Shown here: positions 12,970 to 41,361 of the stretch, one piece after another
How the letters are laid out: every line of letters starts with the position of its first letter
How positions within the stretch are numbered: the first letter of the stretch is position 1
Origin: Acidipropionibacterium virtanenii
Lineage (GTDB): Bacteria > Actinomycetota > Actinomycetes > Propionibacteriales > Propionibacteriaceae
Length of the DNA: 64,000 nucleotides
Direction of reading: 5' to 3'
Assembly (NCBI RefSeq): GCF_003325455.1
Contig: NZ_CP025198.1
Coordinates: forward strand, 372,001-436,000
Made by a program: the position numbers and the translations under genes
Notes under the pieces: generated by a model
What the model was told of the DNA's origin: nothing
What the model saw: the letters and a program-made list of their open reading frames with translations, nothing else
The model's database searches: none

Positions 12970-12976
12970 CCCCTTG

Positions 12977-12992
12977 CGTCAAACGTTTGACG
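12977..12992. promoter_or_regulatory. LacI-type operator upstream of lacI-ABC-GH172 operon
   Basis: Perfect 16-base palindrome CGTCAAACGTTTGACG with the central CG typical of LacI-family sites, 60 bases upstream of the LacI gene at 13052. Autoregulation of the whole 13-18.5 kb operon is the likely role. Confidence 0.75.
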
Positions 12993-13051
12993 TCCTTAGC
13001 TTCACTCCCAGCCGGTCATCGTTGACCGGTTGGAACTGCGAGGGGGCACCG

Positions 13052-14098: not shown

Positions 14099-14195
14099 CG
14101 CAGCGGCTCCCGGCCATGCCCCGTCCGTACCCCGGGCGCCGGCATCCGCACCATGACGACGCAGATGTCCATGATGAGTAGAAAGGCATGTCTTC

Positions 14196-17367: not shown

Positions 17368-17404
17368 GAACGGTCAATCGAGACGTGTGAGAAATGGAGA
17401 GTTC

Positions 17405-18502: not shown

Positions 18503-18523
18503 TCCGGCGACCGGCCCCGGGCC

Positions 18524-18590
18524 GGAAATCCCGCTCAACGAGGGGTTTCGTCCCGATCGGGACGGCAAACCCCCGTTGAGCGGGAAATCC
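18524..18590. repeat. Long palindrome between convergent genes (TTCCCGCTCAACG family, copy 1)
   Basis: Near-perfect inverted repeat with arms of about 30 bases that meet at CCCGATCGGG. The arm core is CCCGCTCAACG, with a few mismatches. It sits 22 bases past the GH172 stop and 23 bases from the convergent LacI stop. A bidirectional terminator fits. The core recurs at 24596 and, slightly altered, at 44646. Confidence 0.75.
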
Positions 18591-18612
18591 GTCTCCCGAC
18601 CGGAGCCGGACC

Positions 18613-19599
18613 TCAGCGACCCCGCTCCACCACCCTCGGCGCGATCCGAATCCGGGTCAGTCCGACGTTCTCGCCGTCGATCCTGCGGAACAGCGTCTCG
18701 GCCGCGGCGCGCCCCATCGCGTCGACGTCCTGATCGATGACGGTCACCCCGCCGCGGATGACGTCGTCGAGGGGGAAGGAGTCGAACCCCACCATGTCGA
18801 CGGGGTCGTCACGGTCCAGGAGCCGGGCCAGGGCGGTGGAGGCGATGGAACTGGCCGCGAACAGCGCCGTGGGCGGCTCGGGCGAGGCCTTCCAGTAACG
18901 CAGCTGCTGGCGCAACGGGCTGTGATCCGTCTCGATCTCCCGGCAGAACTCCAGGCGGGGATCCTCTGGCAGGCCGGCTTCGGCGAGCGCCCGCTGATAC
19001 CCCTTCAGCCGCTCGGTCTGGGTGAACAGCTCGGGCGGATCGCCGACGAAGGCGATCCGGCGATGACCGCGCCCGACCAGCAGTCCGGTGGCCTCGGCCG
19101 CTCCCCGGATGTTGTCGCACAGCACGACGTCGGTCTCCACGCCTGGGATCGGGCGGTCGACGCAGACGATCGGCACGGTGGCGACCAGGCGCTGGAGATA
19201 CCGGCTCGCCGTGCCGGTGGGCCACAGCAGGATCCCGTCGATCTGGCGGGCCATCAACGACTCGAGCACGGCCTGCTCGCGGCCCGGATCGTGGTGGGTC
19301 AGCGACACTGTGAGGGTGCACCGGTGCCGGCTGGCGACGCTCTCGATCGCCCTGGCCAGGCGGGCCTGGACAGGCTCGGAGATGTCCTCGCAGACGAACC
19401 CGATGGAACGGGTGAGTTTGCGCCGCAGCACCCGCGCCGCCGCGTTGGGGCGGTAGTCGAGGGCCTTCATGGACGCCTGCACGCGGGCTTTCATGGCGTC
19501 GCTGACGCCGCGCTCGTGATTGAGCACCCGGGAGACGGTCTTCACCGACACCTCAGCGTGACGGGCGACGTCGTGGATCGTCGCGTGATCCTTCCTCAT
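18613..19599 (-). CDS. LacI-family transcriptional regulator (GH32 locus)
   Basis: 328 residues. The helix-turn-helix is IHDVARHAEVSVKTVSRVLNH, then the hinge RPNAAARVLRRKLTRSIGF, then a sugar-binding-like effector domain (GILLWPTGTASRYL, DMVGFDSFPLDD). It is transcribed away from the importer and GH32 genes beginning at 19764. Two palindromes in the 164-base gap are probable binding sites, so it likely represses both itself and the importer. Confidence 0.92.
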   Translation of the reverse strand: MRKDHATIHDVARHAEVSVKTVSRVLNHERGVSDAMKARVQASMKALDYRPNAAARVLRRKLTRSIGFVCEDISEPVQARLARAIESVASRHRCTLTVSLTHHDPGREQAVLESLMARQIDGILLWPTGTASRYLQRLVATVPIVCVDRPIPGVETDVVLCDNIRGAAEATGLLVGRGHRRIAFVGDPPELFTQTERLKGYQRALAEAGLPEDPRLEFCREIETDHSPLRQQLRYWKASPEPPTALFAASSIASTALARLLDRDDPVDMVGFDSFPLDDVIRGGVTVIDQDVDAMGRAAAETLFRRIDGENVGLTRIRIAPRVVERGR

Positions 19600-19619
19600 G
19601 ATCCGTCCTCTCTGAAACA

Positions 19620-19631
19620 GACATCGATGTC
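19620..19631. promoter_or_regulatory. Palindromic operator near the LacI start
   Basis: GACATCGATGTC, a perfect 12-base palindrome with a central CG, 20 bases upstream of the minus-strand LacI start. It is likely an autoregulatory site. Confidence 0.55.
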
Positions 19632-19717
19632 ATCCAGCGTCCGGGCGGTCTGCCCCGCACGTTGACGCTAGCAGACGGTTCTCGGCGGCTCCCGGCCCGG
19701 TGACGCCGGTCGCATGG

Positions 19718-19735
19718 TTGTCCTACGTTGGACAA
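19718..19735. promoter_or_regulatory. Palindromic operator upstream of the GH32-locus importer
   Basis: TTGTCC-N6-GGACAA centred on ACGT, 28 bases before the binding-protein start at 19764. Position and symmetry fit a LacI-family operator controlling the 19.8-24.5 kb operon. Confidence 0.6.
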
Positions 19736-19763
19736 ACCTCAAAGATGTGGCGAAAGGATGACG

Positions 19764-21032
19764 ATGAATCGTCGGAGATTCCTGGCGGGCGCCGGAGCGG
19801 CAGGGCTCGGCCTGCTGCTCGGCGGATGCGCCCAAGGTTCCAAGACGCCCCCGGGCACAGTGGCGTTCTTCAATGACGTGCCGACCTGGAGCCCGGGCTT
19901 CGAGCGGACCGACGCGGCCCTCAAGCGTCGCGCCGGCGCGACGCTGGGCCCCCAGTCGGTGCCCGGCACCTCCTCCTACCAGCAGGTGATCCAGTCCCAG
20001 CTCCAGACCCGGAACCCTCCCGACATCCACAAGTGGGGCTCCGGCTTCCGGATGCAGGATCTGGCCCGCACCGGGAACCTGCGCGAACTGGACGACGTCT
20101 GGGACACCATCATGGCCAACGGCTGGGCGAGCGCCGACACCAAGGCGATGTTCGACTACCACGGGCACAGCTACGGTATCCCCCTGGTGCAGGGCTTCTA
20201 CGTCCTCTTCTACTCGGTCAAGGTCTTCAAGCGGCTGGGCCTGACCCGCCCCACCACCTGGAAGGAGTTCATCGCCGCCTGCGAGGCCCTCAAGAAGGCC
20301 GGCATCACCCCGATCGGCGCCACCCAGGTGAACTCCTTCCCGGTCGCCTACTGGATGAGCCCGCTGGCCGTGGCGGTGGACGCCGACTGGTTCGACAAGG
20401 TCTGTCACGGCAAGGCGTCCTTCCTCGACGCGCCGGGACGCCAGATGATGGAGATCTGGCAGGAGATGATCCGGAAGGGCTGGTTCACCAGCCCCGACGT
20501 CGCCGACAACGACTTCCCGGCCATGGTGGCCAAGGAGCAGATCGGCATGTACGTCAACGCCGCCGCCTGGGGCTCCCAGGCCCTGGAGGCCACCAGCCTC
20601 GGCAAGGACGGCTTCGACTGCTTCATCCTGCCGCCGGTCGACGGGTCGGCGCCGAAGGCCACCATCGCCGAGACGGCCGGGCTGCTGGTGCCCAGGCGGG
20701 CCCCGCACCTCGAGGAGACGCTCAAGGTGGCGAACTCATGGATGGCCCCCGACGTCCAGAAGCAGTGGGCGTCCTTCCTCAACGGCAGCACCGCCAATCC
20801 GAAGGTGCCCTGGGTCAACCCGCAGTCCCAGCGGATCCAGAAGCAGGTCACCGACAACGACATCAAGATCCTCAACCGCTACTACGAGGCGAGCCCGCCC
20901 GCCCTGGTGGACGGCAACCTGCAGGATCTCGGCGGGTTCATGGCCAACCCGGACGATCCGGTCGGCGTCCTGGAGAGCCTTCAGGAGCGCGCCGACACCG
21001 AGTGGAAGTACTGGCAGAAGGTGACGTCATGA
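19764..21032 (+). CDS. Sugar ABC transporter substrate-binding lipoprotein (GH32 locus)
   Basis: 422 residues. The leader MNRRRFLAGAGAAGLGLLLG ends at lipobox LGGC, with RRRF suggesting Tat export. The mature part is a family 1 solute-binding protein (GIPLVQGFYVLFYSVKVFKRL, KEQIGMYVNAAAWG). ATG 19764 was preferred over 19758 because GAAAGG is then correctly spaced. It is first in an operon with two permeases, GH32 and a small monooxygenase-like gene, under the divergent LacI regulator. The ligand may be a fructose-containing oligosaccharide, judging from GH32. Confidence 0.92.
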   Translation: MNRRRFLAGAGAAGLGLLLGGCAQGSKTPPGTVAFFNDVPTWSPGFERTDAALKRRAGATLGPQSVPGTSSYQQVIQSQLQTRNPPDIHKWGSGFRMQDLARTGNLRELDDVWDTIMANGWASADTKAMFDYHGHSYGIPLVQGFYVLFYSVKVFKRLGLTRPTTWKEFIAACEALKKAGITPIGATQVNSFPVAYWMSPLAVAVDADWFDKVCHGKASFLDAPGRQMMEIWQEMIRKGWFTSPDVADNDFPAMVAKEQIGMYVNAAAWGSQALEATSLGKDGFDCFILPPVDGSAPKATIAETAGLLVPRRAPHLEETLKVANSWMAPDVQKQWASFLNGSTANPKVPWVNPQSQRIQKQVTDNDIKILNRYYEASPPALVDGNLQDLGGFMANPDDPVGVLESLQERADTEWKYWQKVTS

Positions 21033-21949
21033 CCACGTCTCAGATCCCCGCCGTGTCGGCGAAGACCGGTCCGACGGGCCAGCAGGTGCGGCCCGACCGC
21101 CCCACCCGGGCCTTCCGCTGGGCCTACCTCATCCCCGCCGTGGTGCTGGTCGGGCTGTGGGCGCTGGCCCCGGCCGCCTACACGCTGTGGCGAAGCTTCT
21201 TCGGCGACGAGTTCGTCGCCCCGACCTTCTCCGGACTGGCCGGTTACGGGCAGGTGCTCACCGACCCCGCCATCATCAAGTCGATGATCAACACGGTCAT
21301 CTGGCTGATCGGCACCGTCATCATCCCCGGCGGCCTCGGGCTGGCGATCGCCTCGCTCACCGAGAGCGTCTCCTGGGGCAAGTGGCCCCGGCTGCTCATC
21401 GTGCTGCCCTATGCGCTGTCCGGCACGGCGGTCGCCGTCGTCTGGAACTTCATGCTCCAGGAGAACGGTGCGATCAACGACCTGCTCATCAACGTCGGGC
21501 TGGGCGGCCTGACCCACGCCTGGCTGCTCAGCTGGCCGCTCAACACCATCGTCATGGTGCTGGCCAACTCCTGGCAGGCCTCCGGGGTGGCGGTCATCCT
21601 GTACCTGGTGGGCCTCCAGGGGATACCGCAGGAGACCATCGAGGCGGCCGCCCTGGACGGCGTCGCCGGCGTCAAGCGGTTCTTCCTCATCATCTTCCCG
21701 CAGCTGCGCAACACCACCGCCATCGTGCTGGGCATCAGCCTGGCCAACGGGCTGAAATCCTTCGACTTCATCTGGGTGCTCACCCAGGGCGGCCCAGGGC
21801 GGTCCACCGAGACCCTGGCGCTGTCGATGTACTGGCAGAGCTTCGTCCTGCAGCGTCCCGGCACCGGCGCCGCGATCACCGTCATCCTTTCCATCCTCGT
21901 GGTCGCGGTCTCCGTCGGCTACCTGCAGCGCCAGCTCAAGGAGCAGTGA
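21029..21949 (+). CDS. Sugar ABC transporter permease, MalF type (GH32 locus)
   Basis: 306 residues. A short cytoplasmic N-terminus (about 25 residues) precedes helix 1 (YLIPAVVLVGLWALAPAAYT). The EAA loop is EAAALDGVAGVKRFFLIIFP. The ATG overlaps the binding-protein stop by four bases (ATGA), which indicates translational coupling. It pairs with the permease at 21957. Confidence 0.92.
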   Translation: MTTSQIPAVSAKTGPTGQQVRPDRPTRAFRWAYLIPAVVLVGLWALAPAAYTLWRSFFGDEFVAPTFSGLAGYGQVLTDPAIIKSMINTVIWLIGTVIIPGGLGLAIASLTESVSWGKWPRLLIVLPYALSGTAVAVVWNFMLQENGAINDLLINVGLGGLTHAWLLSWPLNTIVMVLANSWQASGVAVILYLVGLQGIPQETIEAAALDGVAGVKRFFLIIFPQLRNTTAIVLGISLANGLKSFDFIWVLTQGGPGRSTETLALSMYWQSFVLQRPGTGAAITVILSILVVAVSVGYLQRQLKEQ

Positions 21950-21956
21950 GTACACC

Positions 21957-22775
21957 ATGAATCGTGGAATGCGCATCCTTCGCGGCGCCCTCGTCGTCGT
22001 GCTGGCCGTCGTCTGGTTCGTGCCGACCTGGCTGCTGATCGTCAACGCCTTCACCCCGAACGCCGAGTACACCGGCCATGCCGTGTGGTGGCCCACCAGG
22101 TTCGGGCTGCTGTCCAACTGGCAGTCCGCCTGGGAGGTCGCCAACCTCGGGCCGGCCATGCTCAACAGCTTCGTCTACGCCGTGGTCTGCGGCGCCCTGG
22201 CCGTGCTGGCCGCGGCGCTGGCCGGCTACGCCGCCACGGCGCTGCCCGGGCGCGGCAAGACCCTCATCTTCTGGCTCATCTACTCCGGCTCGCTGTTCCC
22301 GATGCAGGCCTTCCTGCGGCCCCTGTTCAGCGCTTACGCCGGCACCGGGCTGTACGACTCTCGGCTCGGCCTCTACCTCGTCTACACCGCCACCTGCGTG
22401 CCCTTCTCCTTCTTCATCATCCGCAATCACATGGTGGGGATGCCCCACGAGATCTCCGAGGCGGCGCAGATGGACGGCGCCTCCTGGTGGACGGTCTTCG
22501 CCCGCTTCTACCTGCCGCTGTCGCGGTCGGCGCTGCTGGCGGCCTTCGTCTTCCAGTTCGTCTGGGTGTGGAACGAACTGTTGTTCGGCATCACGCTGTC
22601 GTTCAATGAGAACGTGCGGCCCGTGATGGCGGCGCTGGCCGGCCTGCAGAGCAACTACGGCACCGTCGGCCCGCCGGTGGTCCTGGCCGGGGCTCTGCTG
22701 GTCTCGCTGCCGGCCGTCATCGTCTTCCTGGTGTTCCAGCGGGCCTTCGTGTCCGGCCTCAAGACGAATATCTGA
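21957..22775 (+). CDS. Sugar ABC transporter permease, MalG type (GH32 locus)
   Basis: 272 residues with about six helices. The EAA loop is EAAQMDGASWWTVFARFYLP and the C-terminal end is FQRAFVSGLKTNI. Its ATG lies 8 bases after the preceding stop, and AAGGAG overlaps the end of that gene. It completes the membrane channel of the GH32-locus importer. No ATPase gene follows. Confidence 0.92.
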   Translation: MNRGMRILRGALVVVLAVVWFVPTWLLIVNAFTPNAEYTGHAVWWPTRFGLLSNWQSAWEVANLGPAMLNSFVYAVVCGALAVLAAALAGYAATALPGRGKTLIFWLIYSGSLFPMQAFLRPLFSAYAGTGLYDSRLGLYLVYTATCVPFSFFIIRNHMVGMPHEISEAAQMDGASWWTVFARFYLPLSRSALLAAFVFQFVWVWNELLFGITLSFNENVRPVMAALAGLQSNYGTVGPPVVLAGALLVSLPAVIVFLVFQRAFVSGLKTNI

Positions 22776-22831
22776 AATTCCCCGGCGACCTCCACCCTGA
22801 GATCGACCTGGCAACCGAAAGGACATATTCC

Positions 22832-24226
22832 GTGCACAAGCTCTACTACCAGCATCCCGGAACGTGGTTCGGCGACTGCATGCCGCTCTACGCCGACGGC
22901 GCCTTCCAGCTGTTCCATCAGCGCGACACCCGAAGGCCCGAACCCTTCGGCGAGCCCTTCGGCTGGGCGCTGGCGCGCACCACCGACTTCGTCGACTTCG
23001 AGGATCTCGGCGAGGCCCTGGAGAAGGGGGACGACGACGCCCAGGACCAGTTCATCTTCGCCGGTTCGGCGTTCGAGGCCTATGGGAAGTATCACGCCCT
23101 GTTCACCGCCTACAACCGCGACTATCCGGCCCAGGGCAGGGCCTCCCAGGTGCTGGCGCACGCCGTCAGCGACGACCTGACGCACTGGACGAAGCTTCCC
23201 GGGCAGATGTTCCCGCCCGAACCCGGCTACGACCCTACCGACTGGCGCGACCCCTTCGTGCTGCGCGACGAGGAGAACGACCGCTGGGTGATGATCCTGG
23301 GCGCCCGGACCGACTCCCCGAAGCTGGCGGTCACCGGGCGCACCGTCTGGTTCACCTCCCCCGATCTGGAGCACTGGCAGTTCCAGGGCGACTTCTGGGC
23401 CCCGGGCCTGTTCACCATGCACGAGATGCCCGACCTGTTCCGGATCGGCGAGTGGTGGTACCTGCTCACCACCGAGTACAGCGACCGCTCCAAGACCGTC
23501 TATCGGATGTCGCGGTCGCTGGAGGGGCCGTGGAGCGCCCCGGTCGACGACGCCTTCGACGGGCGGGCCTACTACGCGGCCCGGTCCGCCTCGGACGGCG
23601 AGCACCGCTACCTGTTCGGCTGGGTGGCCACCAAGGAGGGTGACGACGACCTCGGCGCCTGGCAGTGGGGCGGCACCCTGGTGGTCCACGAGGTGTACCA
23701 GCGCGCCGACGGCTCTCTGGGGGTCAAGGCTCCCGGGACCGTCGAGGCCGCGTTCCCGGCCTCGGAAGACCTTCTCGGTCGGGCGGTGACGGTCTCGTCT
23801 CCCGACGGACAGCAGGTCGTGGACCTCGGCGAGCTGCCGGGCGACGAGCCGTTCATCGTCAGACTGCACCTGGACGACGTCGACGCCCGGGCGGTCTCCA
23901 TCCGCCTGTTCGGCGACGAGGTGGGAGACGCCTACGCCTTCACACTGCGCCAGGGGGAGCGGCGGATCGACTTCGACCGGGTGCCGAACTGGCCCTGGTA
24001 CCGGTTCGACAACCGCGGGCTGGAACGGCCGTTCGTCCTGGAACCGGGCCAGGGATGCGACATCGAGATCGTCGTCGACGACACCATCGCCACCCTCTAC
24101 GTCGACGGGGTGGCGCTGGATGTGAGGATGTACGACAAGCCCGGGACCGGGCTGGGGCTCTCGGTGACCGACGGGTCGGCGACCATCGGGACGGCGCAGC
24201 TGGTCACCGGGTTCACGAAGGAGTGA
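22832..24226 (+). CDS. Glycoside hydrolase family 32 protein (beta-fructosidase type)
   Basis: 464-residue cytoplasmic GH32 enzyme with a five-bladed propeller and a C-terminal beta-sandwich. The three catalytic blocks are recognisable though divergent. The nucleophile region is WFGDC (Asp17) in place of WMNDPNG. The transition-state motif RDP is intact in DWRDPFV, and the acid/base glutamate lies in MHEMPDLF. Family members hydrolyse sucrose, levan, inulin or related fructosides. It starts at GTG 22832 behind GAAAGGA and follows the permease by 56 bases. Unlike the GH32 homologue at 50956, its active site appears complete. Confidence 0.87.
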   Translation: MHKLYYQHPGTWFGDCMPLYADGAFQLFHQRDTRRPEPFGEPFGWALARTTDFVDFEDLGEALEKGDDDAQDQFIFAGSAFEAYGKYHALFTAYNRDYPAQGRASQVLAHAVSDDLTHWTKLPGQMFPPEPGYDPTDWRDPFVLRDEENDRWVMILGARTDSPKLAVTGRTVWFTSPDLEHWQFQGDFWAPGLFTMHEMPDLFRIGEWWYLLTTEYSDRSKTVYRMSRSLEGPWSAPVDDAFDGRAYYAARSASDGEHRYLFGWVATKEGDDDLGAWQWGGTLVVHEVYQRADGSLGVKAPGTVEAAFPASEDLLGRAVTVSSPDGQQVVDLGELPGDEPFIVRLHLDDVDARAVSIRLFGDEVGDAYAFTLRQGERRIDFDRVPNWPWYRFDNRGLERPFVLEPGQGCDIEIVVDDTIATLYVDGVALDVRMYDKPGTGLGLSVTDGSATIGTAQLVTGFTKE

Positions 24227-24235
24227 GGAGAGGCC

Positions 24236-24541
24236 ATGAGAACAGGGACCATGAGAACACTGCATGCGGAGTTCACCGCGAAACCAGGATGTGCCGAAGA
24301 GATCGCCGAGCGGCTCGCGGAGTACGGGAGGAGCGTGAGGGCCGAGCCGGGCAACGTCATCTTCGCCCCGAACAGGCGCGAGGATGATCCGGACCGGTTC
24401 TTCGTCTTCGAGGCCTACGCCGATGAGGAGGCCTTCCAGACTCATCTGGCCGCGCCCTACGGCGGGCCCTTCAATGAGGCTCTGGGTCCACTCATCAGGG
24501 AGCCGGCCTCGGTGCTGACCCTCCTCACCCCGGTGGAGTGA
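24236..24541 (+). CDS. Antibiotic biosynthesis monooxygenase (ABM) domain protein
   Basis: 101-residue ferredoxin-like alpha/beta barrel of the ABM/YgiN type (HAEFTAKPGCAEEIAERL, then FFVFEAYADEEAFQTHLAAPY). Members include quinol monooxygenases and small sugar-related isomerases or mutarotase-like proteins, so the name should not be read as a function. It follows GH32 by 9 bases behind GAGGAGAGG and is the last gene of the operon. A role in processing the liberated sugar is conceivable. Confidence 0.75.
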   Translation: MRTGTMRTLHAEFTAKPGCAEEIAERLAEYGRSVRAEPGNVIFAPNRREDDPDRFFVFEAYADEEAFQTHLAAPYGGPFNEALGPLIREPASVLTLLTPVE

Positions 24542-24595
24542 GAGCGGTCCCGGAGGAGTCGTCGGGCTGACAGATCCGGTTCATCAACTGGCGGT

Positions 24596-24658
24596 TTTCC
24601 CGCTCAACGGGGGTTCCCGGCGTCCCATCCAGGACGGGGACCCTCGTTGAGCGGGAAT
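24596..24658. repeat. Long palindrome (TTCCCGCTCAACG family, copy 2)
   Basis: Imperfect inverted repeat with arms of about 27 bases. The outer arms TTCCCGCTCAACG and CGTTGAGCGGGAA are perfect. It is 55 bases past the ABM stop and ends the sugar operon. Beyond it lies the degenerate region. Confidence 0.7.
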
Positions 24659-24841
24659 CTCGTCTCGTCCCGGTCACCACAACCCCACGACCGCGACATC
24701 TGTACCGTCTGCCCGGGCCGCAGGCGCCAGGCCGCCGCGGCAGATCGCTGGTTGATCGTTCGGCAGGTTGTCAGAAAGTAGCGCGGCTAGTTGGCAGCTG
24801 AAGGATCGGCTAATTGTCGATGGAGGCTGGTCTGGCGGCAT
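24659..24841. other. Intergenic stretch without recognisable gene
   Basis: Short stop-rich stretch between the palindrome and the DUF4143 remnant. It is less GC-rich than neighbouring genes. No promoter, RNA or intact frame was recognised. It probably contains eroded sequence. Confidence 0.4.
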
Positions 24842-25471
24842 GGTGAAGAGAATCGGGCTGCGGTTCTCCCGAGGCTGTTGACCAGGGCGGTTGGCCAGAC
24901 GGGTGGGCTCCTCAATATCTCGAAGGTCGGCGAACCGCTGGAGATCTCCTGAGGCACCGTCACGTCGTACCTGCAGTTGCTCGAATCGCTGTTCCTGCTC
25001 AGCCTCCTGCCGACTTGGGGAACGACGGTGTCGTCCCGGAGCGTGGAGGCTCCGAAAATCCATGTCGTGGACTCCGGCATCGGGGCGCACCTGCTCCGGC
25101 TCAGCAGGACGAAGCTCGAGCGGGGCGACCCGTCGTCGCTGACCGAGTTCGGACACCTCGTCGAGTCCTTCGTCGTCCAGGAGATCATTCGCCAGACAAG
25201 CTGGATGAATGACGTCGTCACCGCGGGCCATTGGCGCACGCGCGATGGCGACGAGGTCGATCTCGTGCTTGAGCGCCAGGATGGCGCCGTACTCGCCTTC
25301 GCGATCAAAGCCGGTGATCACATCGATTCGCGGCAACTGTCCGGGTTGCGAAAGCTCCATGCACGGCTCGGTGACGCCTTCATCTCGGGCATCGCATTTC
25401 ATCTTGGCAGTCGGGGATATCCGGTCGAGGACCGTATCCACGTCCTTCCAGTCGAACGCCTCTGGGTCTGA
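24842..25471 (+). pseudogene. Remnant of a DUF4143/AAA_14 ATPase
   Basis: C-terminal part of an ATPase of the AAA_14-DUF4143 type. From 24842 the frame reads a diagnostic DUF4143 segment (LPRLLTRAVGQTGGLLNISK), hits an in-frame TGA at 24950-24952, then continues in the same frame with YLQLLESLFLLSLLP, IHVVDSGIGAHLL and the nuclease-like GDEVDLVLE to 25471. The N-terminal P-loop domain is absent upstream, so the gene is both truncated and interrupted. Full-length members are about 400 residues. A TTG at 24977 could start a 164-residue fragment, but function is unlikely. Confidence 0.8.
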
Positions 25472-25479
25472 ACGCGTCC

Positions 25480-25821
25480 TTGAGGACAGCTGAGGCCGGA
25501 CGGGATCTCTGGCGACGATCGGCCCCATCCCGGCTGTCCCGGGCTGGACTGGTGACCAAGAAGCCGGATGACCGTGACCGCAGGGTGGTCCGTCTGGAAC
25601 CCGGCGAGCGGGCCGCCGCGGAGCGGGAACGGATCGACCGGTCGTGGCTGGAGATCTATCGCGCAGGGGTCGGCGGGCTGGACGACGAGGAGCAGCTCCG
25701 GTTGGCACAGGCCCTCCCGGCGCTTGTCGCACTGGCGACAGGTGTGGCCACGGCCGGGGCGCCCGCTGATCGCGAGGTGGGTCTCGGCGGCCCCCGAATC
25801 CCGCCGTCTGTGCAGGACTGA
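25480..25821 (+). pseudogene. C-terminal fragment of a MarR-family regulator
   Basis: The frame contains the second half of a MarR protein: the end of the recognition helix and wing (SRLSRAGLVTKKPDDRDRRV) and the C-terminal dimerisation helix (DDEEQLRLAQALPALVALA). The first 50-60 residues, including most of the winged helix, are missing. The upstream codons do not resemble the family. It lies next to the DUF4143 remnant and is probably debris of the same rearrangement. Confidence 0.7.
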
Positions 25822-25939
25822 GACTCAGCCTCTTCCCCGATCTCCGGGGGTCGCGGGCAGGGGGTTGGGCATCCCTGACGCGATTCATGTCGGTGCGCAC
25901 CATTAGTCTGTGATCAACCTGTTCAGGAAAGGCGCCGGC

Positions 25940-28900
25940 ATGGAGTTCCACCGCAGCGACTACCTTCGTCGTGCTCTGTTCGAGACCCTGCCGGCTCATC
26001 TGGAGCCCTACGTCAGGAGGCGGTTGGCCGAGAGCTACGGGCCGAACTGGAGCCTGCCCTCCCGCGACGGACGGTCCGGCGGTGCGGCCGAGGAGTTGTC
26101 GGACCTGTCCATGCAGATCTGGGCGCTGACGGCGCTGGGCCCCGGCCGCACGCCGATCCTGCGCACCGAACCGGCCTTCCGCAGCCGCCTCCACGAGGTG
26201 CGTCAGGCGCGCAACGCCGTCGCCCATGGTGCCGAACTGGATCGGTATCAGACGCTGGCCGCGCTCGGCTCGGTGCGCGAGGTGCTCAAGGAGATCGGGG
26301 CCGACGCCGGAGTCGCCGAGGTGACCTCCTTCTACGATGCCGTTGCCGGCTCATCCTGGACCGCCCCGACCTCCTCGCCCGAGCCCGCATCCGCTCCCGT
26401 CGAGGATCAGGAGGCCCACGGCGGCGATTCGCCGGCCACGGATGACGAGGCCCCCGATCCTCAGGAGGACACCGCCTTCCGCGCTCCCCGTCGGGCTCTG
26501 CGCGCTTCGGATGAGTTCAGCGCTCTGGGCGCCTCCGATGAACCGGAGCAGGACCGCAACCCCCTCGACGCGGTGCGCCTGGACGTCACCTTCGCGCCGG
26601 TGGTCTCCTATGCTCAGGCGGTCGCGGGACTGGCCACTCCTATCTCCGTGGCCCTCTCGCTCCCTCAGGACGTCATGCACGCGTCCGATGCCCCGACCGG
26701 CGATGGCGAGGCCGACCCCTCGCGTTGGAGGGTTGGCGCCGAGGAGGATCAGACCCCCGCCGAGACCATGCACCGGGTCGTCCCTCCCGTCGACGGCGCC
26801 CAGGGTCACCGGCTGGCCGGGCTGCGGATCACCGTGGTGATGGAGAACGAGGGCACCGCGATCACCGAGCCCTGGCATTTCGGGGTCGATCTGCTCACCG
26901 ATCCGATCGAGCGCTCCAGCACCATCAGGCTCGACCGCACCGAGCTGCTGCAGATGACATCCCAGGCTCTCACCACGGTGCGCATCCGGGTGGAGTCGCA
27001 GGACCGGGAGCGCGAGGTGACGGTGGACGGCCCGGTCGTGCTGGCGGCCCGCCAGTGGCGGCTGCGGGATTCGGTGGGCAATGCGGCGCGTACCCTGGCC
27101 ACCTTTGTCCAGCCCCAGCAGACCGAACTCCCCGAGCTGTGGCGACGGGCCGCCGACCACCTGCGCACGGTGACCGGCAGCGCCGCCCTCAACGGCTACC
27201 AGGAGAGTGCCGAGCGGGTCGACGCCACCATCGCGGCGCTGTGCGAGGCGATCGTCGAGAAGGACGTCGCCTATTCGGCCCCGCCGACCAACTGGTCGGA
27301 CGAGGGCCAGCGGATCCGCACCGCCGAGGAAGTCCTGGAGGGGCGGCTGGCCACCTGTCTGGACACCACGATCCTGATGGCCAGTGCCCTGGAGTTCGTC
27401 GACCTCCAGCCGCTCCTCCTGCTGCTGGACGGCCATGCCTTCCTCGGCTACTGGAAGACCGAGGACCACGGCCCCGAGCCGATCGCGGCGTCCGGCCCGT
27501 CCCTGATCAATCACATCGATCGCGGTGACATCGGCCTGGTGGAGACCACCGCCCTCACCAATGCCGACGCCGTCAGCCCGGCAACCCTGCACCACGCCGC
27601 CCGGCAGGCCATGCTCCCCGACGGTTCGGCGGTGCTCTTCGCCGTCTCCGTGCACGAGGCCCGGGAGCGCGGCGTCGCGGCCCTGCCGGTGCGCGGCCAC
27701 GACGAGTCCGGGCAGGCCGTCGAGGTCTCCTACCAGCCGGCGGAGCGCCCGATCATCACCCCCGATCCGGCCCCTCCTCTCACCCGAGCCCCGCGTCGCC
27801 CCAAGGGGCCGGCGCAGGTGGAGAAGTGGAAACGGCAGCTGCTCGATCTGAGCCTGCGGAACCGGCTCATCAACTGCCCCGATTCGGCGATCCGACGTCA
27901 CAGCATCGTCGGGCTGGCCGTGCCGAGCAGTCTCACCGGCACCTTCGAGGATCTGGTCAGCGGCGGTACCCAGCTGTACCTGAACCCCAGGGACGCCCAG
28001 ACCTCCGTCGACGACGAGACCTTCCTGGCCGCTCAGCTGCTGGAGCGGCAGGGCGTCACCACCGACCTGCCGGTCGAGGCCTATGACTCCGCCCTGCAGA
28101 AGATCGCCGCCGACACCCGGACCCTGATCGAGGAGACCGGCGCCAACAACCTCTTCCTGGCGGTCGGGTCCCTGGTGTGGCGGTCGGGGGAGCGCGATCT
28201 GCGTTCCCCGCTGATCCTGATACCGGTGGAGTTGCACCGAAAGTCGCGCAAGAGCCTGTACTCGATCACCCTGGACCGGGCAGGCTCCTCCACCCCGAAC
28301 TTCTCCCTGCTGGAGCGCCTGGCGGTCGATCTCGGGCTGCAGATCCCCGGCCTGGCCGACCCCGAGGAGGACGCCGCGGGGCTCGACATCGACAAGAGCC
28401 TGGACGCCGTCCGGCAGGCCCTCATCGACAACGGACTCGGCTTCCACGTGGAGCCGACGGTCCACCTGGGGCTGTTCAAGTTCGGCGGGTTCCGGCTGTG
28501 GAAGGACCTCGAGGAGTCCTGGGAGCAGATCGCCCGCAACCCCTTGGTGCGTCATCTCATCGAGACCCCGAAGGACCCCTTCGTCGATCCGAACGCCGGC
28601 GAGGCGGACTCGGATCTCGACGAGCTGGTCTCCCGGCTGCCGATCCCCGCCGACGCCTCCCAGGCCGCGGTGGTCTCCGAGGCACTGGCCGGCCACACCA
28701 TGGTGGTGGAGGGCCCGCCGGGAACGGGCAAGTCGCAGACCATCACCAACCTCATCGTGCGCGCCATCGCCGACGGACGCCGGGTGCTCTTCGTCGCCGA
28801 GAAGCAGGCGGCCCTGGAGGTCGTCACCCGACGCCTGGCGGGCGTCGGCGTCGGCGACCTGGTGCTCAACCTGCACGATCGCGACCAGCGTCCCGAGGCT

Positions 28901-31900
28901 GTGCGCACCAAGCTGCGCCGCGCCCTGGACCTGTCGGTCGAGCCTGATGCCGAGGGGATCCGCGCCGAACGGACCAGGCTGCGCTCGGCCGGCGGGCGTC
29001 TGAGGCAGTACCAGCACGGGCTGCACGATCCGGTCGCCGGGGGGCTCTCGTACTTCAGCGCGCGCACCAGCCTGCTCGCCCAGGGCGACGGGCCGACACT
29101 GCGTCTGGAGCCCGAACGGCTGTCGACGCTGGCGGTCGGAGAGGTCTCGCGGTTGCGCGACAGCCTGCCGGGGCTGCGCAGCGCCCTGTGGAACCAGGAT
29201 CCGGGCGCGATCGGCCAGATGCTCTATCTTCGTGACGCCGTCGATCCTGCTCGGCTGCCGGCCCTGCTGGACGCCGTCGACGAGCTGCGCGCGGCCTTCG
29301 CCGATGCCGGCCCCGATGCGGCCGCCGCCAGGACCGGATCTCCGGACCAGATCAGGCTGCTGTGCGAGGCGCTCGACGAGCCGACGCTCACCCGGGAGAC
29401 GGTTGCGGAACTGGGCACCCCGCAGTGGCAGCGCGGTGCCGCGATGCTGGACGCCGGCCTGGCCGAGTTCGACAGGGTGCGGCCCAATGCGCTGGCCTTC
29501 TACCGTCCCGACGTGCTCTCCGGCCCGCTGGACCAGGTGCGCGCCGACCTGGTCGACGCCAAGAGCGCCATGTTCGGCAAGGCCCGCAAGTGCGAGAGGG
29601 CGCTGGCGCCGCTGGCGCCCTACGCCACCGGCCGTCCGATGACCGACGATCCGCAGCTGCTGCTGGCGATGGCCGACGAGCTCATCTCCCTGCGGCACCG
29701 GGTGGGACGGCTCGCCGAGCTGGCAGCCGAGACGGTTCCGGCGATGACGGCGCGCTGGGCCGGGCGGTGGAGCCCGCTGGACGCGGCCTCGCGCGAGGCC
29801 GCGCGCTCGGCGATCGGGTGGCACCGTGAGGTGGCCTCCCTGCCGGCCAGGCCAGGATCGCGTCCGACCCCCTTCCAGGAGGCCGCCGGCACTCTGCTGG
29901 ACGCCGCGGACCGGCGGACCGCCGCCTCCCGCATCCGACGCTGCCAGGCGGCGGCGCGCACCCTCGCCGAGGTATCCGGGGGCACGATCGCCGCCGATGA
30001 GGTGCTGGACGCCGCCCCGGTGGCCGGCAGCCGGGAGTTCCGCCTCAAGGAGCTGACCACTCGCAACGAGATCAACGCGCGGCTGGCGGCGTTCCGCGGC
30101 AACGGCCTGGACCAGGCCGTCGGCCAGATGCTCTCTCACGACGTCGCGCCCGCCGACGTCGGCGACGCCTTCGAGCGCGGGCTGGCGGCCGCGACCCTGT
30201 CGGAGGGGGAGCGTCGGGCCTCCTTCGGCAGATTCAGCCCGGCCGAGCAGACCGACACCATCGACGGCTATCTCAGGTCCACCGAGAGCATCCGCCGGGT
30301 GCTGCCCGAACTCCTCATCGCACAGACCCTGGGCAACCACCGCCCCGCCCTGGACGGGGAGACCGCCCGGCTGGCGACGCTGCGCAGCGAGATCAACCGC
30401 AGGCGCGGCCGGGGCCGCACGATCCGCTCGCTGTTCTCCGAGTACGGCGATCTCATCAGCCACATCACGCCCTGCGTGCTGGTATCCCCCGACTCGGTGG
30501 CCCGCTTCATCCCGGCCGACCGGTCCGATTTCGACCTGGTGGTCTTCGACGAGGCCTCCCAGATCACCGTCGCATCGGCGGTGGGCGCGATGGGCCGGGG
30601 CAGGGCCGTCGTCGTGTGCGGCGACTCCCACCAGATGCCGCCGACCTCCTTCGCCCAGCTGGTGCGCGACGACGAGTTCGCCGACGAGGAGCTGGCCGAC
30701 GAGGAGTCGATCCTCGGCGAGTGCGTGGCCGCCCAGGTGCCCCGTCACTGGCTGTCGTGGCACTATCGCAGCCGGGTGGAGTCGCTCATCGCCTTCTCGA
30801 ACCAGCACTACTACGAGGGCAAACTGTCCTCCTTCCCCAGCCCGCTGCCCGACGGCCGCGACGACGGGCCGGACGGATACGGGATCCTCATGCACCCGGT
30901 GGTCGACGGCCAGTTCATCCACTCCTCGCAGCGGGGGCGGCCCAAGGGGCTGCTGCGCACCAATCCACTGGAGGCCGACGCCGTCGTCGCCGACATCCGC
31001 CGCCGCTTCGAGGCCTCCCCGGACCTGTCGCCGTCGATCGGCGTGGTGACCTTCAACGCCCAGCAGCGCGACCTCATCGAGACCCGGCTGCGGGATCTGG
31101 ACGATCCCCGGATCACGGCCTGCCTGGATTCCCCCGACGGCGTCTTCATCAAGAACCTGGAGAACGTCCAGGGAGATGAGCGCGACGTCATCCTCTTCTC
31201 GGTGGCGTTCTCCGCCGACGAGAACGGCAACGTGCCGCTGAACTTCGGGCCGCTCAACCGCCCCGGAGGGGAGCGGCGGCTCAATGTGGCGATCACCCGG
31301 GCGCGGCGTCAGGTGGTGATGTTCTGCAGCTTCCAGATCGACCAGCTGCATGCCGACCGGAGTCGCTCGGTCGGGCTGCACCACCTCAAGGACTATCTCC
31401 GGGTGGCCGCCACCGGACCGGAGATCATCGCCGACGCCGGCCCGGCCCGGGGCTCCGACCGCCACACCGATGACATCGCCGCCGCGTTGCGGGCCGCGGG
31501 GCTGTCGGTGCGCACCGATGCGGGCATGTCCGATTTCCGGATCGATCTGGTGCTGTCGGATCCCGCCGAACCCGAGATGCCGCTGGTGGCGGTGCTGCTG
31601 GACGGCCCGTCGTGGAACCGGCGCGAGACGGTGTACGACCGGGACGTGCTGCCCACGACGGTGCTGGCCGGCATGATGGGCTGGCCCGATGTGGAGCGGG
31701 TGTGGCTGCCCGAGTGGCTCAACGACCGCGACTCCGTGATCGTCCGGCTGGTCGCCTCGGTGCAGAGGGAGCAGGCGGTACAGGGGGAGCAGGCGGCGCG
31801 GCCGGTTGGGACCGAGGACATCGCCCGGCCGGACGACACAGCTCTGCTGGAGAGCCCTCCCGACGATGATCATGAGTCTGACAAGGTGATTGACGCCCCG

Positions 31901-32668
31901 ACTCTGCCGATCGCCGAGGATGCGGAAGGCGGGCATCCGGATGCTGAGGCCGCCGACGGTGCCGGACTGCAGACCGGAACCGATGCGGCGCCCGGACCGG
32001 GGGACACCGCCATCGGTGATCTCGGCACCCGGGCTGTGGCGCGCGCCGCCGCAGGGCGGCGGACCGACGGTGCGGACACGGCTGCGGATCAGCAGATCGC
32101 CGCGGATGCGCAGATCTCCGAGCGTCTGACGAGCGTCACCGAGTTCATGGCATGGCCCGAGCACCGGTTCGGGGAGCGCGATCTCCTCGACGAGGCGAAC
32201 CTTCGCACCGACGCCCGGGAGCAGGTCCACCGGGCGGCCCACGAGATCTGCATGGCCGAGTTCCCGATTCAGGAGCGACGATTCCACTACCTGGTGGCGC
32301 GGGCCTTCGGCCTGACCCGGATGCAGGCGTCGCGCCAGGAGCAGATCGCCTCGCTGCTGCGCGGGGCGGACGTCATCACCGACTCCCACGGCTTCGTGTG
32401 GCCGAAGGGTGTGAGCCCGGAGTCGATGAGCTCGCATCGACGTCATCAGCTCGATCACGGGATCGGGATGGAGGAGATCCACCCCGTCGAGTGGGCGAAT
32501 CTTGTGGCCGACGTGAGCAGTCGCATCGGGCCAGGGGCCTCACGCGACGGCCTTGTCAGGGCCGTCTTCGCCGAACTCGGCGAGAACCCGCACCGCCTCA
32601 CCCGGTCGATCCGCGACGTCATCGAACAGGGCCTGGGCAGCGCCCCGCCGCTCCCCGGGAACATCTGA
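25940..32668 (+). CDS. Giant HEPN-DUF4011-helicase-endonuclease-DUF3320 protein (candidate defence factor)
   Basis: 2242 residues. Domains in order: a Swt1-type HEPN domain (about 1-135) with the RNase motif R91-N-A-V-A-H96; a Glu/Asp/Pro-rich linker (140-205); a beta-rich region (210-390); a transglutaminase-like segment with TCLDTT and DGHAFLG (about 470-505); DUF4011 from about 629 (LLDLSLRNRLIN); and a COG1112-type superfamily 1 helicase with Walker A GPPGTGKS (about 924), DEASQ (about 1537), HYRSR and the final motif NVAITRARRQ. These are followed by an MTES_1575/Vsr-like endonuclease domain (about 1843-1940), an acidic linker and DUF3320 (about 2080-2240). Related COG1112 helicase-nuclease fusions occur in antiphage systems such as Mokosh. 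Defence is therefore inferred, not shown. ATG 25940 was preferred over GTG 25910 because AGGAAAGG precedes it. Confidence 0.9.
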   Translation: MEFHRSDYLRRALFETLPAHLEPYVRRRLAESYGPNWSLPSRDGRSGGAAEELSDLSMQIWALTALGPGRTPILRTEPAFRSRLHEVRQARNAVAHGAELDRYQTLAALGSVREVLKEIGADAGVAEVTSFYDAVAGSSWTAPTSSPEPASAPVEDQEAHGGDSPATDDEAPDPQEDTAFRAPRRALRASDEFSALGASDEPEQDRNPLDAVRLDVTFAPVVSYAQAVAGLATPISVALSLPQDVMHASDAPTGDGEADPSRWRVGAEEDQTPAETMHRVVPPVDGAQGHRLAGLRITVVMENEGTAITEPWHFGVDLLTDPIERSSTIRLDRTELLQMTSQALTTVRIRVESQDREREVTVDGPVVLAARQWRLRDSVGNAARTLATFVQPQQTELPELWRRAADHLRTVTGSAALNGYQESAERVDATIAALCEAIVEKDVAYSAPPTNWSDEGQRIRTAEEVLEGRLATCLDTTILMASALEFVDLQPLLLLLDGHAFLGYWKTEDHGPEPIAASGPSLINHIDRGDIGLVETTALTNADAVSPATLHHAARQAMLPDGSAVLFAVSVHEARERGVAALPVRGHDESGQAVEVSYQPAERPIITPDPAPPLTRAPRRPKGPAQVEKWKRQLLDLSLRNRLINCPDSAIRRHSIVGLAVPSSLTGTFEDLVSGGTQLYLNPRDAQTSVDDETFLAAQLLERQGVTTDLPVEAYDSALQKIAADTRTLIEETGANNLFLAVGSLVWRSGERDLRSPLILIPVELHRKSRKSLYSITLDRAGSSTPNFSLLERLAVDLGLQIPGLADPEEDAAGLDIDKSLDAVRQALIDNGLGFHVEPTVHLGLFKFGGFRLWKDLEESWEQIARNPLVRHLIETPKDPFVDPNAGEADSDLDELVSRLPIPADASQAAVVSEALAGHTMVVEGPPGTGKSQTITNLIVRAIADGRRVLFVAEKQAALEVVTRRLAGVGVGDLVLNLHDRDQRPEAVRTKLRRALDLSVEPDAEGIRAERTRLRSAGGRLRQYQHGLHDPVAGGLSYFSARTSLLAQGDGPTLRLEPERLSTLAVGEVSRLRDSLPGLRSALWNQDPGAIGQMLYLRDAVDPARLPALLDAVDELRAAFADAGPDAAAARTGSPDQIRLLCEALDEPTLTRETVAELGTPQWQRGAAMLDAGLAEFDRVRPNALAFYRPDVLSGPLDQVRADLVDAKSAMFGKARKCERALAPLAPYATGRPMTDDPQLLLAMADELISLRHRVGRLAELAAETVPAMTARWAGRWSPLDAASREAARSAIGWHREVASLPARPGSRPTPFQEAAGTLLDAADRRTAASRIRRCQAAARTLAEVSGGTIAADEVLDAAPVAGSREFRLKELTTRNEINARLAAFRGNGLDQAVGQMLSHDVAPADVGDAFERGLAAATLSEGERRASFGRFSPAEQTDTIDGYLRSTESIRRVLPELLIAQTLGNHRPALDGETARLATLRSEINRRRGRGRTIRSLFSEYGDLISHITPCVLVSPDSVARFIPADRSDFDLVVFDEASQITVASAVGAMGRGRAVVVCGDSHQMPPTSFAQLVRDDEFADEELADEESILGECVAAQVPRHWLSWHYRSRVESLIAFSNQHYYEGKLSSFPSPLPDGRDDGPDGYGILMHPVVDGQFIHSSQRGRPKGLLRTNPLEADAVVADIRRRFEASPDLSPSIGVVTFNAQQRDLIETRLRDLDDPRITACLDSPDGVFIKNLENVQGDERDVILFSVAFSADENGNVPLNFGPLNRPGGERRLNVAITRARRQVVMFCSFQIDQLHADRSRSVGLHHLKDYLRVAATGPEIIADAGPARGSDRHTDDIAAALRAAGLSVRTDAGMSDFRIDLVLSDPAEPEMPLVAVLLDGPSWNRRETVYDRDVLPTTVLAGMMGWPDVERVWLPEWLNDRDSVIVRLVASVQREQAVQGEQAARPVGTEDIARPDDTALLESPPDDDHESDKVIDAPTLPIAEDAEGGHPDAEAADGAGLQTGTDAAPGPGDTAIGDLGTRAVARAAAGRRTDGADTAADQQIAADAQISERLTSVTEFMAWPEHRFGERDLLDEANLRTDAREQVHRAAHEICMAEFPIQERRFHYLVARAFGLTRMQASRQEQIASLLRGADVITDSHGFVWPKGVSPESMSSHRRHQLDHGIGMEEIHPVEWANLVADVSSRIGPGASRDGLVRAVFAELGENPHRLTRSIRDVIEQGLGSAPPLPGNI

Positions 32669-32759
32669 GATCGGGCTCGGGCCTGTCGGCCACCTACTGG
32701 TCGTGCGGGCCCGGCAGGGCACATATGCTCAGAACCCGGCCGGTGAATGGGAGCCCACC

Positions 32760-32849
32760 GTGATCGCCGGCGACCTCGAAGGATTCACCGTCAACGACAC
32801 CGCGGCCGTCTCCGGCGGACGCGCCGCTGGAAGGAAGATGCACCGATGA
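32760..32849 (+). CDS. Possible 29-residue leader ORF coupled to GH13
   Basis: GTG at 32760 behind GGGAG opens a 29-codon frame (MIAGDLEGFTVNDTAAVSGG, then RAAGRKMHR). Its TGA overlaps the GH13 ATG as ATGA. A TATGCT hexamer about 30 bases upstream could be a -10 box. The spacing suggests translational coupling or a leader peptide. The small size leaves this tentative. Confidence 0.35.
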   Translation: MIAGDLEGFTVNDTAAVSGGRAAGRKMHR

Positions 32850-34636
32850 CCACCCTGATCCACTCCGATCCGCCCTCCTCCGGTGCAGGCGACCCGGGCG
32901 CCGGCGTCCCCCAGGGCGCCGAAGCCACCCATCATGCCGGAACATATCGCGCCGGAACAGAATGGTGGCGCTCCGCGGTGGTCTACCAGATCTATCCGCG
33001 CTCCTTCGCCGACTCCAACGGCGACGGGGTGGGCGATCTGCAGGGCATCATCGACCACCTCGATCACCTGGTGGCCCTCGGCGTCGACGCCGTCTGGCTC
33101 TCCCCGGCCTATCGCTCCCCGATGGCCGACAACGGCTACGACATCTCCGACTACCAGGACGTCGACCCGATCTTCGGCGACCTGGCCGCCATGGACCGGC
33201 TCATCGCCGAGATGCACGCCCGCGGCCTCCGCCTGGTGATGGACCTGGTGGTCAACCACACCTCCGACCAGCACGCCTGGTTCCGCGACGCCCTCACCGG
33301 CCCCGACGCGGAGCACCGCGACTGGTACATCTGGCGAGACCCCCGCCCCGATGCCACCGCCCGCGACGCCGGCCCCGGCCAGTGGCGCGGCGACGAGCCG
33401 AACCGCTGGGTGTCGGCCTTCTCCGGGCCCGTCTGGGCCTGGGACGAGGCCTCGGGCCAGTACTATCTGCACCTCTTCGCCCCCGGCCAGCCCGACCTCA
33501 ACTGGGAGAACCCGAAGGTCCGGGCGGCCGTGTACACGATGATGAACTGGTGGCTCGATCGGGGCGTCGACGGCTTCCGGATGGACGTCATCAACCTCAT
33601 CTCCAAGCCCGCCTGGGGCCCCGACGACACCGGCTCCGGGATGATCGCCTGCTCGGTGGGGCCGCGCCTCCACGAGTTCCTGGCCGAGATGAACCGGGAG
33701 GTGCTGGGGGCCGGAGACAAAGTGCTCATGACTGTCGGCGAGATGCCCGGGGTCACCCTGGACGAGGCCGCCGACGTCAGTGGCCGCGACCGCCACGAGC
33801 TCGACATGGTCTTCCAGTTCGAGCACGTCTGGCTCGACAACGGACCCGACGGCGACAAGTACCGCCCCGCCCCGCTGCGGCTGCCGGAGATGAAGCGCAA
33901 CCTGGCCCGCTGGTCCGGGCTGTGTGAGACGGGCTGGAACTCCCTGTACCTGGGCAACCACGACCAGCCGCGCTACGTCTCGCGCTGGGGAGACGAGTCC
34001 TACCGGGAGCGCTCCTCGACCGCCTGGGCCGCCATGCTGCACGCCCATCCCGGCACGCCGTTCATCTACCAGGGCGACGAGCTGGGCATGACCGACGCCC
34101 ACTTCGAGCGGATCGACCAGTACGAGGACGTCGAGACCCTGGGCTACTGGCGCCAGGCCGTCGAGCTGGACGGCCGCGATCCGGCCGAGGTGATGGCCGG
34201 GGTCCGCTACATCAGCCGCGACAACGCCCGCACCCCGGTGCAGTGGACCGCCGGCGACAATGCCGGTTTCACCACGGGGCATCCGTGGCTGGCGGTCAAC
34301 CCCAATCACGTCGAGATCAACGCCGCCGATCAGGTCGGAAGGCCGGGCAGCGTCTTCGAGTTCCATACGACGCTGTGCCGGCTGCGCCACGAGCTGCCGG
34401 TGCTCATCGAGGGCACCATCGAACTGCTGGACGCCGATCATCCCTGCCTGTGGCGGGTGCGCCGTCGGCACGACGGCGTCATCCTGGATGCGGCGGCGAA
34501 TATGTCCTCGGAGCCCCTGGACCTGTCCGAGAGCTCCGAACCGATCCCCGACGGCCGGGTGGTGCTGAGCAATGTCAGCGGCTCCGCCGCCACCGACCCG
34601 CTGGGTCCCTGGGAGGTCCGCTGGATCCTGTCCTGA
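32846..34636 (+). CDS. GH13 alpha-glucosidase (oligo-1,6-glucosidase-like)
   Basis: 596-residue cytoplasmic GH13 enzyme. Conserved regions are DLVVNHTSDQHAWF, GFRMDVIN (nucleophile Asp247), VGEMPG (acid/base Glu299) and LGNHDQPR (Asp373). The residue after the nucleophile is Val248. In characterised Bacillus enzymes valine here goes with alpha-1,6 specificity, whereas threonine or alanine goes with alpha-1,4, so isomalto-oligosaccharides are the likely substrate. The first 25 residues (Ser/Pro/Gly/Ala-rich) precede the catalytic domain at WWRSAVVYQIYPRSF. The start is ATG 32846 behind GGAAGGA. The convergent LacI gene downstream may not regulate it. Confidence 0.92.
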   Translation: MTTLIHSDPPSSGAGDPGAGVPQGAEATHHAGTYRAGTEWWRSAVVYQIYPRSFADSNGDGVGDLQGIIDHLDHLVALGVDAVWLSPAYRSPMADNGYDISDYQDVDPIFGDLAAMDRLIAEMHARGLRLVMDLVVNHTSDQHAWFRDALTGPDAEHRDWYIWRDPRPDATARDAGPGQWRGDEPNRWVSAFSGPVWAWDEASGQYYLHLFAPGQPDLNWENPKVRAAVYTMMNWWLDRGVDGFRMDVINLISKPAWGPDDTGSGMIACSVGPRLHEFLAEMNREVLGAGDKVLMTVGEMPGVTLDEAADVSGRDRHELDMVFQFEHVWLDNGPDGDKYRPAPLRLPEMKRNLARWSGLCETGWNSLYLGNHDQPRYVSRWGDESYRERSSTAWAAMLHAHPGTPFIYQGDELGMTDAHFERIDQYEDVETLGYWRQAVELDGRDPAEVMAGVRYISRDNARTPVQWTAGDNAGFTTGHPWLAVNPNHVEINAADQVGRPGSVFEFHTTLCRLRHELPVLIEGTIELLDADHPCLWRVRRRHDGVILDAAANMSSEPLDLSESSEPIPDGRVVLSNVSGSAATDPLGPWEVRWILS

Positions 34637-41320: not shown

Positions 41321-41361
41321 TATCTGGTCGCCAGGCCGACGCGTTCGAAGGAGAGCACGCC

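Follow-up and report, generated by a model that had tools for sequence, protein, structure and literature searches.

The gene at the 26-kb mark of the window (the whole 64 000-nucleotide stretch of DNA analyzed here) encodes a multidomain protein that, on balance, probably belongs with the MTES_1575/ProA proteins and defends against phage as a single-gene, abortive system, with a helicase that would gate a HEPN RNase and a Vsr-like nuclease domain that appears to be dead. Neither this architecture nor the abortive idea is new, both having been published in 2013 in the account of such giant proteins by Anantharaman et al. (PMC3710099); what is new here is that, as judged from sequence, Vsr nuclease activity has likely been lost throughout a clade with an exchangeable N-terminal effector.

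ORF calling bears out the first-pass annotation in finding a single protein of 2242 amino acids, encoded between an ATG at position 25940 and a stop at 32668. The longest version of the ORF has 2252 amino acids and starts at a GTG at 25910, and this start is possible as well; the ATG is preceded, 7 nt away, by the purine-rich AGGAAAGG (by eye). The 2252-amino acid form with the GTG start is denoted P0001 and its numbering is used below, unless stated otherwise (ATG numbering is P0001 numbering minus 10). A 2043-amino acid open frame on the minus strand of the window (26351-32482) was considered as a gene and set aside, being probably a by-product of GC-rich codons. The features of the gene and its product, with the evidence for each, are as follows.

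25940..32668, plus strand: the whole gene, 2242 amino acids (ATG 25940) or 2252 amino acids (GTG 25910); ORF calling.
25979..26299, plus strand: Swt1-type HEPN domain, P0001 24-130; Pfam PF18731, 28.7 bits (threshold 27.5).
26210..26227, plus strand: HEPN R-x4-H motif RNAVAH, P0001 101-106, that is, 91-96 in ATG numbering; string search.
26357..26551, plus strand: predicted disordered linker between the HEPN domain and the rest of the protein; pLDDT <50, model residues 140-204.
26576..27040, plus strand: beta-sandwich domain; strands in the structural model and weak Foldseek matches to Ig-like sandwiches.
27128..27727, plus strand: putative transglutaminase-like (TGL) domain with C483 (27356), H509 (27434) and E545 (27542); conservation, weak Pfam matches and Foldseek.
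27836..28321, plus strand: DUF4011 (PF13195), P0001 643-804; Pfam, 102.6 bits.
28652..28906, plus strand: first RecA-like half of the superfamily 1 (SF1) helicase, with the Walker A motif GPPGTGKSQT at 28712; PF13086 and string search.
30539..31330, plus strand: second half of the SF1 helicase, with motifs II, III, V and VI; PF13087, Foldseek and string search.
31469..31756, plus strand: Vsr/MTES_1575 fold, probably without nuclease activity, with RIDLVL at 31538 and VLLDGPSWN at 31592; Pfam and motif loss.
32207..32578, plus strand: C-terminal winged-helix-like region, DUF3320-like but below threshold; helices and strands in the model.

The central observation concerns the Vsr domain. The first-pass annotation called a Vsr/MTES_1575-like endonuclease, and of this call the fold stands (MTES_1575, PF18741, at residues 1854-1949, with 53.7 bits against a cut-off of 38.2), but the Glu and the His of the nuclease motif are gone. 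The nuclease columns were compared over 47 rows, which are the longer and better homologs fetched, the copy of the window gene (L023), L110 and the N-terminal pieces of split genes having been dropped; 27 of these rows are type I, 19 are type II and one (L108) is empty, so that 46 hold data. The two types were named from the Vsr motif itself, and a tree built on helicase columns only (1500-1845, 46 rows) then split them, separating 26 type I rows from the 20 others at 100/100, with L014 left out because it is too short. The type II motif (19 rows, plasmid and Hhe proteins among them) reads I/V-D-h ... V-E-C-D-G-x-x-Y-H, whereas that of type I (27 rows, P0001 among them) reads V-L-L-D-G-x-x-W. 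The motif Glu is present in 18 of the 19 type II rows compared with none of the 27 in type I, and the His in 16 and in one (L010), respectively; in P0001, these positions are occupied by Leu and Asn. A further Glu, in helix 1, is found in 17/19 type II rows as against 2/27 in type I (L097 and L098), with Thr in P0001, and the two motif aspartates are retained in every row of both types (27/27 and 19/19).

Vsr itself is not known to have an acidic residue at the position of the lost Glu, so that the absence of this residue alone is no proof of inactivity, and the argument is one of joint loss; on these grounds, the Vsr domain of type I is probably dead as a nuclease. Given this feature of Vsr and the two aspartates kept throughout type I, some residual activity of the domain is conceivable. 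A profile made from 16 of the 19 type II rows (L051, L105 and L109 were omitted, the His being missing in all three and the Glu in L051 as well) retrieved, from among proteins in the PDB, RAP-domain proteins with an E-value of 6e-4 and the endonuclease-like 3hrl with 0.002, but Vsr only with 0.6; the type I alignment (A8) comprised 22 of the 27 rows.

Comparison of P0001 with the copy in a genus relative (G001), made with our own counting script, gives a dN/dS of 0.25 for the Vsr domain, alongside 0.22 for the second helicase half and 0.26 for the HEPN domain, and 0.42-0.59 for the linkers, the beta-sandwich, the insert and the C-terminal domain. The Vsr domain is thus under purifying selection and, at this level of constraint, is retained for something, perhaps nucleic-acid binding by the dead fold. 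The same constraint, together with a fold that scores above the Pfam cut-off and the two invariant aspartates, is what can be said for the model put forward in print for this architecture (PMC3710099), to which the first-pass annotation came near: the helicase and the Vsr domain would act first, as a DNase that cuts the invading DNA, and HEPN would be a suicidal back-up that kills the cell if the DNase fails, with the TGL domain possibly adding proteolysis. Against the absence of the motif Glu from all type I rows, of the His from all but one and of the helix-1 Glu from all but two, this sequence of events is unlikely, and the helicase-nuclease half of the argument for defense is weak, because motif residues are lost in every type I row.

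The favored reading, a helicase-gated HEPN RNase, places execution at the N-terminus. The HEPN domain of P0001 only just clears the Pfam threshold; its predicted structure is helical, with block pLDDT mostly 76-95 and one block at 54, and the intact HEPN motif that had been read from the letters alone, R91-N-A-V-A-H96, is indeed there, inside the Pfam HEPN_Swt1 match. A HEPN-like domain is found in 15 of the 27 type I rows, with R-x4-H intact in 11 of the 15 (P0001, L006, L008, L009, L012, L013, L056, L091, L094, L095 and L101) and the domain degenerate in the other four (L007, L053, L054 and L099). Eight of the 15 score over the Pfam cut-off (P0001, L006, L056, which was scanned as L003, L091, L094, L095, L099 and L101), three score under it (L008, L009 and L054), and Pfam reports no HEPN in L007 and L053 at E<=1, nor in L012 and L013 at E<=0.01; some of these scans of the relatives were run on N-terminal pieces, and the local HEPN profiles were built on their own hits, from type I rows. 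The local type I-derived profile found no HEPN in the type II rows, and the Pfam scan covered type I N-termini only.

The remaining type I rows are diverse. The N-terminal extension is absent in nine of the 27 (L010, L011, L055, L058, L092, L096, L097, L098 and L100), and in L057 (6854-13693) it is present without any Pfam match at E<=1. In the ProA-like L093 (6931-14229), a DEDDh exonuclease (78.9 bits) replaces HEPN at the N-terminus, which also contains a BRCT-like stretch with a score slightly under the Pfam cut-off, and L014, which is broken into pieces, was placed in none of these groups. The N-terminal module is exchangeable in type I, being HEPN, degenerate HEPN, the DEDDh exonuclease of L093 or none. 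L054 and L099, which branch off at the base of type I in an order that the tree does not resolve, both have a degenerate HEPN, and the domain may therefore have been acquired early, with later losses.

Some candidates for a replacement encoded nearby were tried. A tblastn search for a separate HEPN near L010 or L011 found none, the best L011 match having an E-value of 0.04 and lying far from the gene. A separate nuclease gene beside the HEPN-less members is not supported by the scan of one neighboring frame each for seven of the nine: the frames next to L058, L096, L097 and L100 look like housekeeping or regulatory genes, and those next to L055, L092 and L098 match no Pfam family.

Because HEPN is intact and conserved, an RNA-targeting abortive arm of the protein, as first suggested from the sequence, is plausible. 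At the same time, type I as a whole does not depend on HEPN, since the domain is degenerate in 4/15 rows and absent in 9/27, and the rows with no HEPN or a degenerate one suggest another effector, perhaps the TGL domain.

The TGL domain, which lies between HEPN and DUF4011, had been overlooked in the first-pass annotation. Its Cys, His and Glu (C483, H509 and E545) are invariant in all 23 rows of an alignment of sequences chosen for having the region, from which L011, L012, L013 and L099, where TGL residues are lost, and others were omitted. Among the type I rows, the three residues are retained in 23 of the 27, including eight of the nine without HEPN, and are lost in the four just named. This retention is the strength of an explanation that casts the TGL peptidase as main effector and HEPN as an accessory or a sensor. 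The assignment itself comes from weak profiles: in the 23 rows, Pfam gives weak matches to DUF553 in 15 and to Transglut_core in nine, with the best E-value at 6e-4, and P0001 itself reaches only 0.3. A Foldseek search with the TGL model retrieves a putative protease first (E 3e-3) and transglutaminase 3 second (E 2e-2), with no match at 1e-3 and low TM-scores, and the region has no match at E<=5 among the sequences of solved structures in the PDB. Moreover, the TGL Cys and His are missing from L012 and L013, both of which have an intact HEPN; this speaks against TGL as the effector and makes the explanation rather improbable.

A strict linkage between TGL and HEPN was also considered and fails, because L012 and L013 have HEPN without the TGL residues, and in L099 neither is intact, TGL and HEPN being both degenerate and the linker long. 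The linker between HEPN and the rest of the protein is shortest in L012 and L013, at about 27 residues compared with 41-114 in the other HEPN-bearing rows. The combination of a short linker, an apparently dead TGL and an intact HEPN in these two rows, which amounts to a single event, is a hint that would fit cutting of the linker by TGL. A regulatory role as a peptidase is possible for the TGL domain.

DUF4011 is present, as had been called by eye, and so is the SF1 helicase core, with Pfam matches to both halves (AAA_11, PF13086, at residues 915-999, 57.5 bits; AAA_12, PF13087, at 1600-1807, 69.9 bits) and with motifs I, II, III, V and VI, the five that were searched for as strings, all located. 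The best Foldseek matches of the second helicase half are IGHMBP2, Dna2, Upf1 and Sen1, with a best E-value of 5e-10. The C-terminal DUF3320 of the first-pass annotation did not hold up, in that Pfam reports none in P0001 at E<=1; among nine relatives scanned, three of which are frames that end before the region, DUF3320 was reported only in L012 and L013 (26.6 and 26.5 bits, cut-off 25). In the model, the C-terminal region of P0001 is helical, with a winged-helix-like order of elements.

Under the reading preferred here, the UPF1-like SF1 helicase, together with the C-terminal dead Vsr fold and the winged helix, would sense phage nucleic acid; an ATP-driven rearrangement would then release or activate the N-terminal HEPN domain, and the freed HEPN would cut RNA, so that the infected cell is stopped. 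A more tentative scenario, possible but somewhat short of probable, extends to the actinobacterial MTES_1575/ProA clade as a whole: an ancestral Vsr DNase would have become a dead nucleic-acid-binding module, with execution passing to an exchangeable N-terminal nuclease (HEPN in the window protein, DEDDh in L093), and the TGL domain may free HEPN by cleavage of the linker.

The neighborhood of the gene in the window says little of defense. Most of the ten neighboring frames scanned encode proteins of sugar uptake or glycoside hydrolases, in agreement with the sugar region described earlier, with no defense island among them and no methyltransferase, as a DNA-modification partner, at E<=0.01. 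The supposed pseudogene flanks are real on the left, where a frame for the C-terminal part of DUF4143 (24977-25471) and a MarR-like remnant (~25520-25820, by eye) are found, but not on the right, where the neighbor is an intact alpha-amylase frame. Elsewhere in the window, two tandem solute-binding-protein frames (39941-42669) both resemble one stretch of G001 and likely result from a duplication.

The gene is present in three of the five genomes of the genus. The nearest named relative is the copy of Acidipropionibacterium jensenii DSM 20535 (69%), which consists of two overlapping frames (L006:14737-15088) with a break near P0001 residue 1572-1583, due either to a frame change or to an assembly error. 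In G001, the copy lies ~240 kb away from the site that is syntenic with the window, and this site lacks a larger block:

12949..32956, no strand: a ~20-kb block with the gene and sugar genes, missing at the syntenic site of G001; synteny comparison.

At the DNA level, no two of the window, G001 and A. jensenii copies have flanks in common, except for short interspersed repeats shared by the window and G001. These repeats (18529-18606, 24596-24666 and 44657-44708 in the window) match L056:558-643, which in G001 lies ~6 kb away from the gene, and may belong to a genus-wide repeat family. On a larger scale, a single ProA match of more than 1000 bits occurs in seven of 196 genomes of the order and 10 of 296 of the class, with the window genome counted. 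The patchy distribution, the different sites and the lack of common flanks make the pattern that of a mobile accessory gene. Five of the 27 type I genes (L006, L014, L096, L100 and L101) are split or contain a stop, which may reflect decay or sequencing error.

The protein could, alternatively, have no part in defense and be an accessory helicase similar to IGHMBP2 and UPF1 that acts in the quality control of RNA or DNA. Cellular helicases are its best relatives of solved structure and its locus is a sugar region; in the account of Pseudomonas aeruginosa defense hotspots (PMC10250203), a DUF4011 gene at the edge of a hotspot is core, so that DUF4011 proteins are not all accessory. The patchiness of the gene, the variation of its sites within the genus and the broken type I genes (if decayed rather than missequenced) are at odds with such a role, as are the profile matches, which are to anti-phage families, and a quality-control helicase is accordingly the least probable of the alternatives weighed here.

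Survey of the homologs for defense neighbors, a check suggested in the first-pass annotation, turned out positive for a few loci. From 18 type I loci, 120 of 176 called ORFs were scanned, and as a control, 120 of the 204 ORFs called in 18 other regions of these genomes, the ORFs being in both cases hand-picked by size and distance; at E<=1e-10, the neighbors matched 92 families and the controls 23, a rough comparison that covers the best 25 of the 92. Among the matches listed, identified defense neighbors occur at a minimum of two, that is, at least 2/18, type I loci: Azaca ZacC lies three genes upstream of L091 on the same strand (1081 bits) and PglW directly downstream of L097 (987 bits). 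A weak TmtA-like protein (163 bits) is a neighbor of L101, and a ZacB match is also among those listed; none of the control ORFs has a match better than E 1e-40. Best matches to anti-phage families, patchy occurrence, changing sites and the Azaca and Pgl neighbors stand on one side and the weakness of the nuclease half on the other, and by this sequence-level evidence defense appears to be the most likely role, as initially proposed.

Among known systems, the closest counterparts are the giant proteins described by Anantharaman et al., with a HEPN (Swt1/Abi2) domain, a TGL peptidase, an SF-I helicase, Vsr and a wHTH, exemplified by MTES_1575 of Microbacterium testaceum; in the part of that paper concerned with these giants, no modification gene accompanies them (PMC3710099). 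Judged by this published architecture, the window protein is alike in the Swt1/Abi2 HEPN, TGL, the SF-I helicase, the Vsr fold and the absence of a modification gene from the ten neighboring frames scanned. At the C-terminus, Pfam reports no DUF3320 at E<=1 and the model is compatible with a wHTH. The window protein differs in the Vsr domain, a DNase in the 2013 account, the motif residues of which are lost in both the window protein and a Microbacterium plasmid relative (L014).

Profile libraries now count proteins of this sort among the anti-phage families. The match to the anti-phage protein ProA (NCBIfam NF058533) has 1447 bits, below the curated cut-off of 1500, and spans positions 22-1900 of the 1903 in the model and residues 299-2224 of P0001, so HEPN lies outside it, the match beginning only at residue 299; PADLOC PDC-S37 gives 850 bits. 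No publication that introduces the name ProA, and none on PDC-S37, was found in the literature searched. Hhe (NCBIfam NF042953, PADLOC Hhe) has the same order of DUF4011, SF1 helicase and Vsr, but membership was rejected on the score (525 bits, far short of the cut-off of 2000), and the annotated Hhe proteins L049 and L052 differ in that their Vsr Glu and His are intact and that the local profile detects no HEPN in them. The likeness to Mokosh helicase-nuclease fusions noted at first is genuine but confined to the SF1 helicase core (PADLOC MkoA, 105 bits, residues 875-1812), and as the match covers only positions 584-1080 of the 1112 in MkoA, membership in this system was rejected as well.

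In the CoCoNuT systems, a published precedent (PMC11090510), a UPF1-like helicase is found together with either HEPN or Vsr effectors, which can replace each other, and the McrC homologs retain an inactivated nuclease fold, likely for nucleic-acid binding. With the window protein, they have in common the UPF1-like helicase and a helical insertion after Walker A (PMC11090510), but they are multi-gene and McrBC-based, and no McrB GTPase is found in the ten scanned frames around the window gene. For annotated 'helicase-nuclease' defense genes in Actinomycetota, the nuclease that is named may not be the effector, and the present case bears on the exchange of effectors around a UPF1-like helicase, in parallel to the published CoCoNuT systems.
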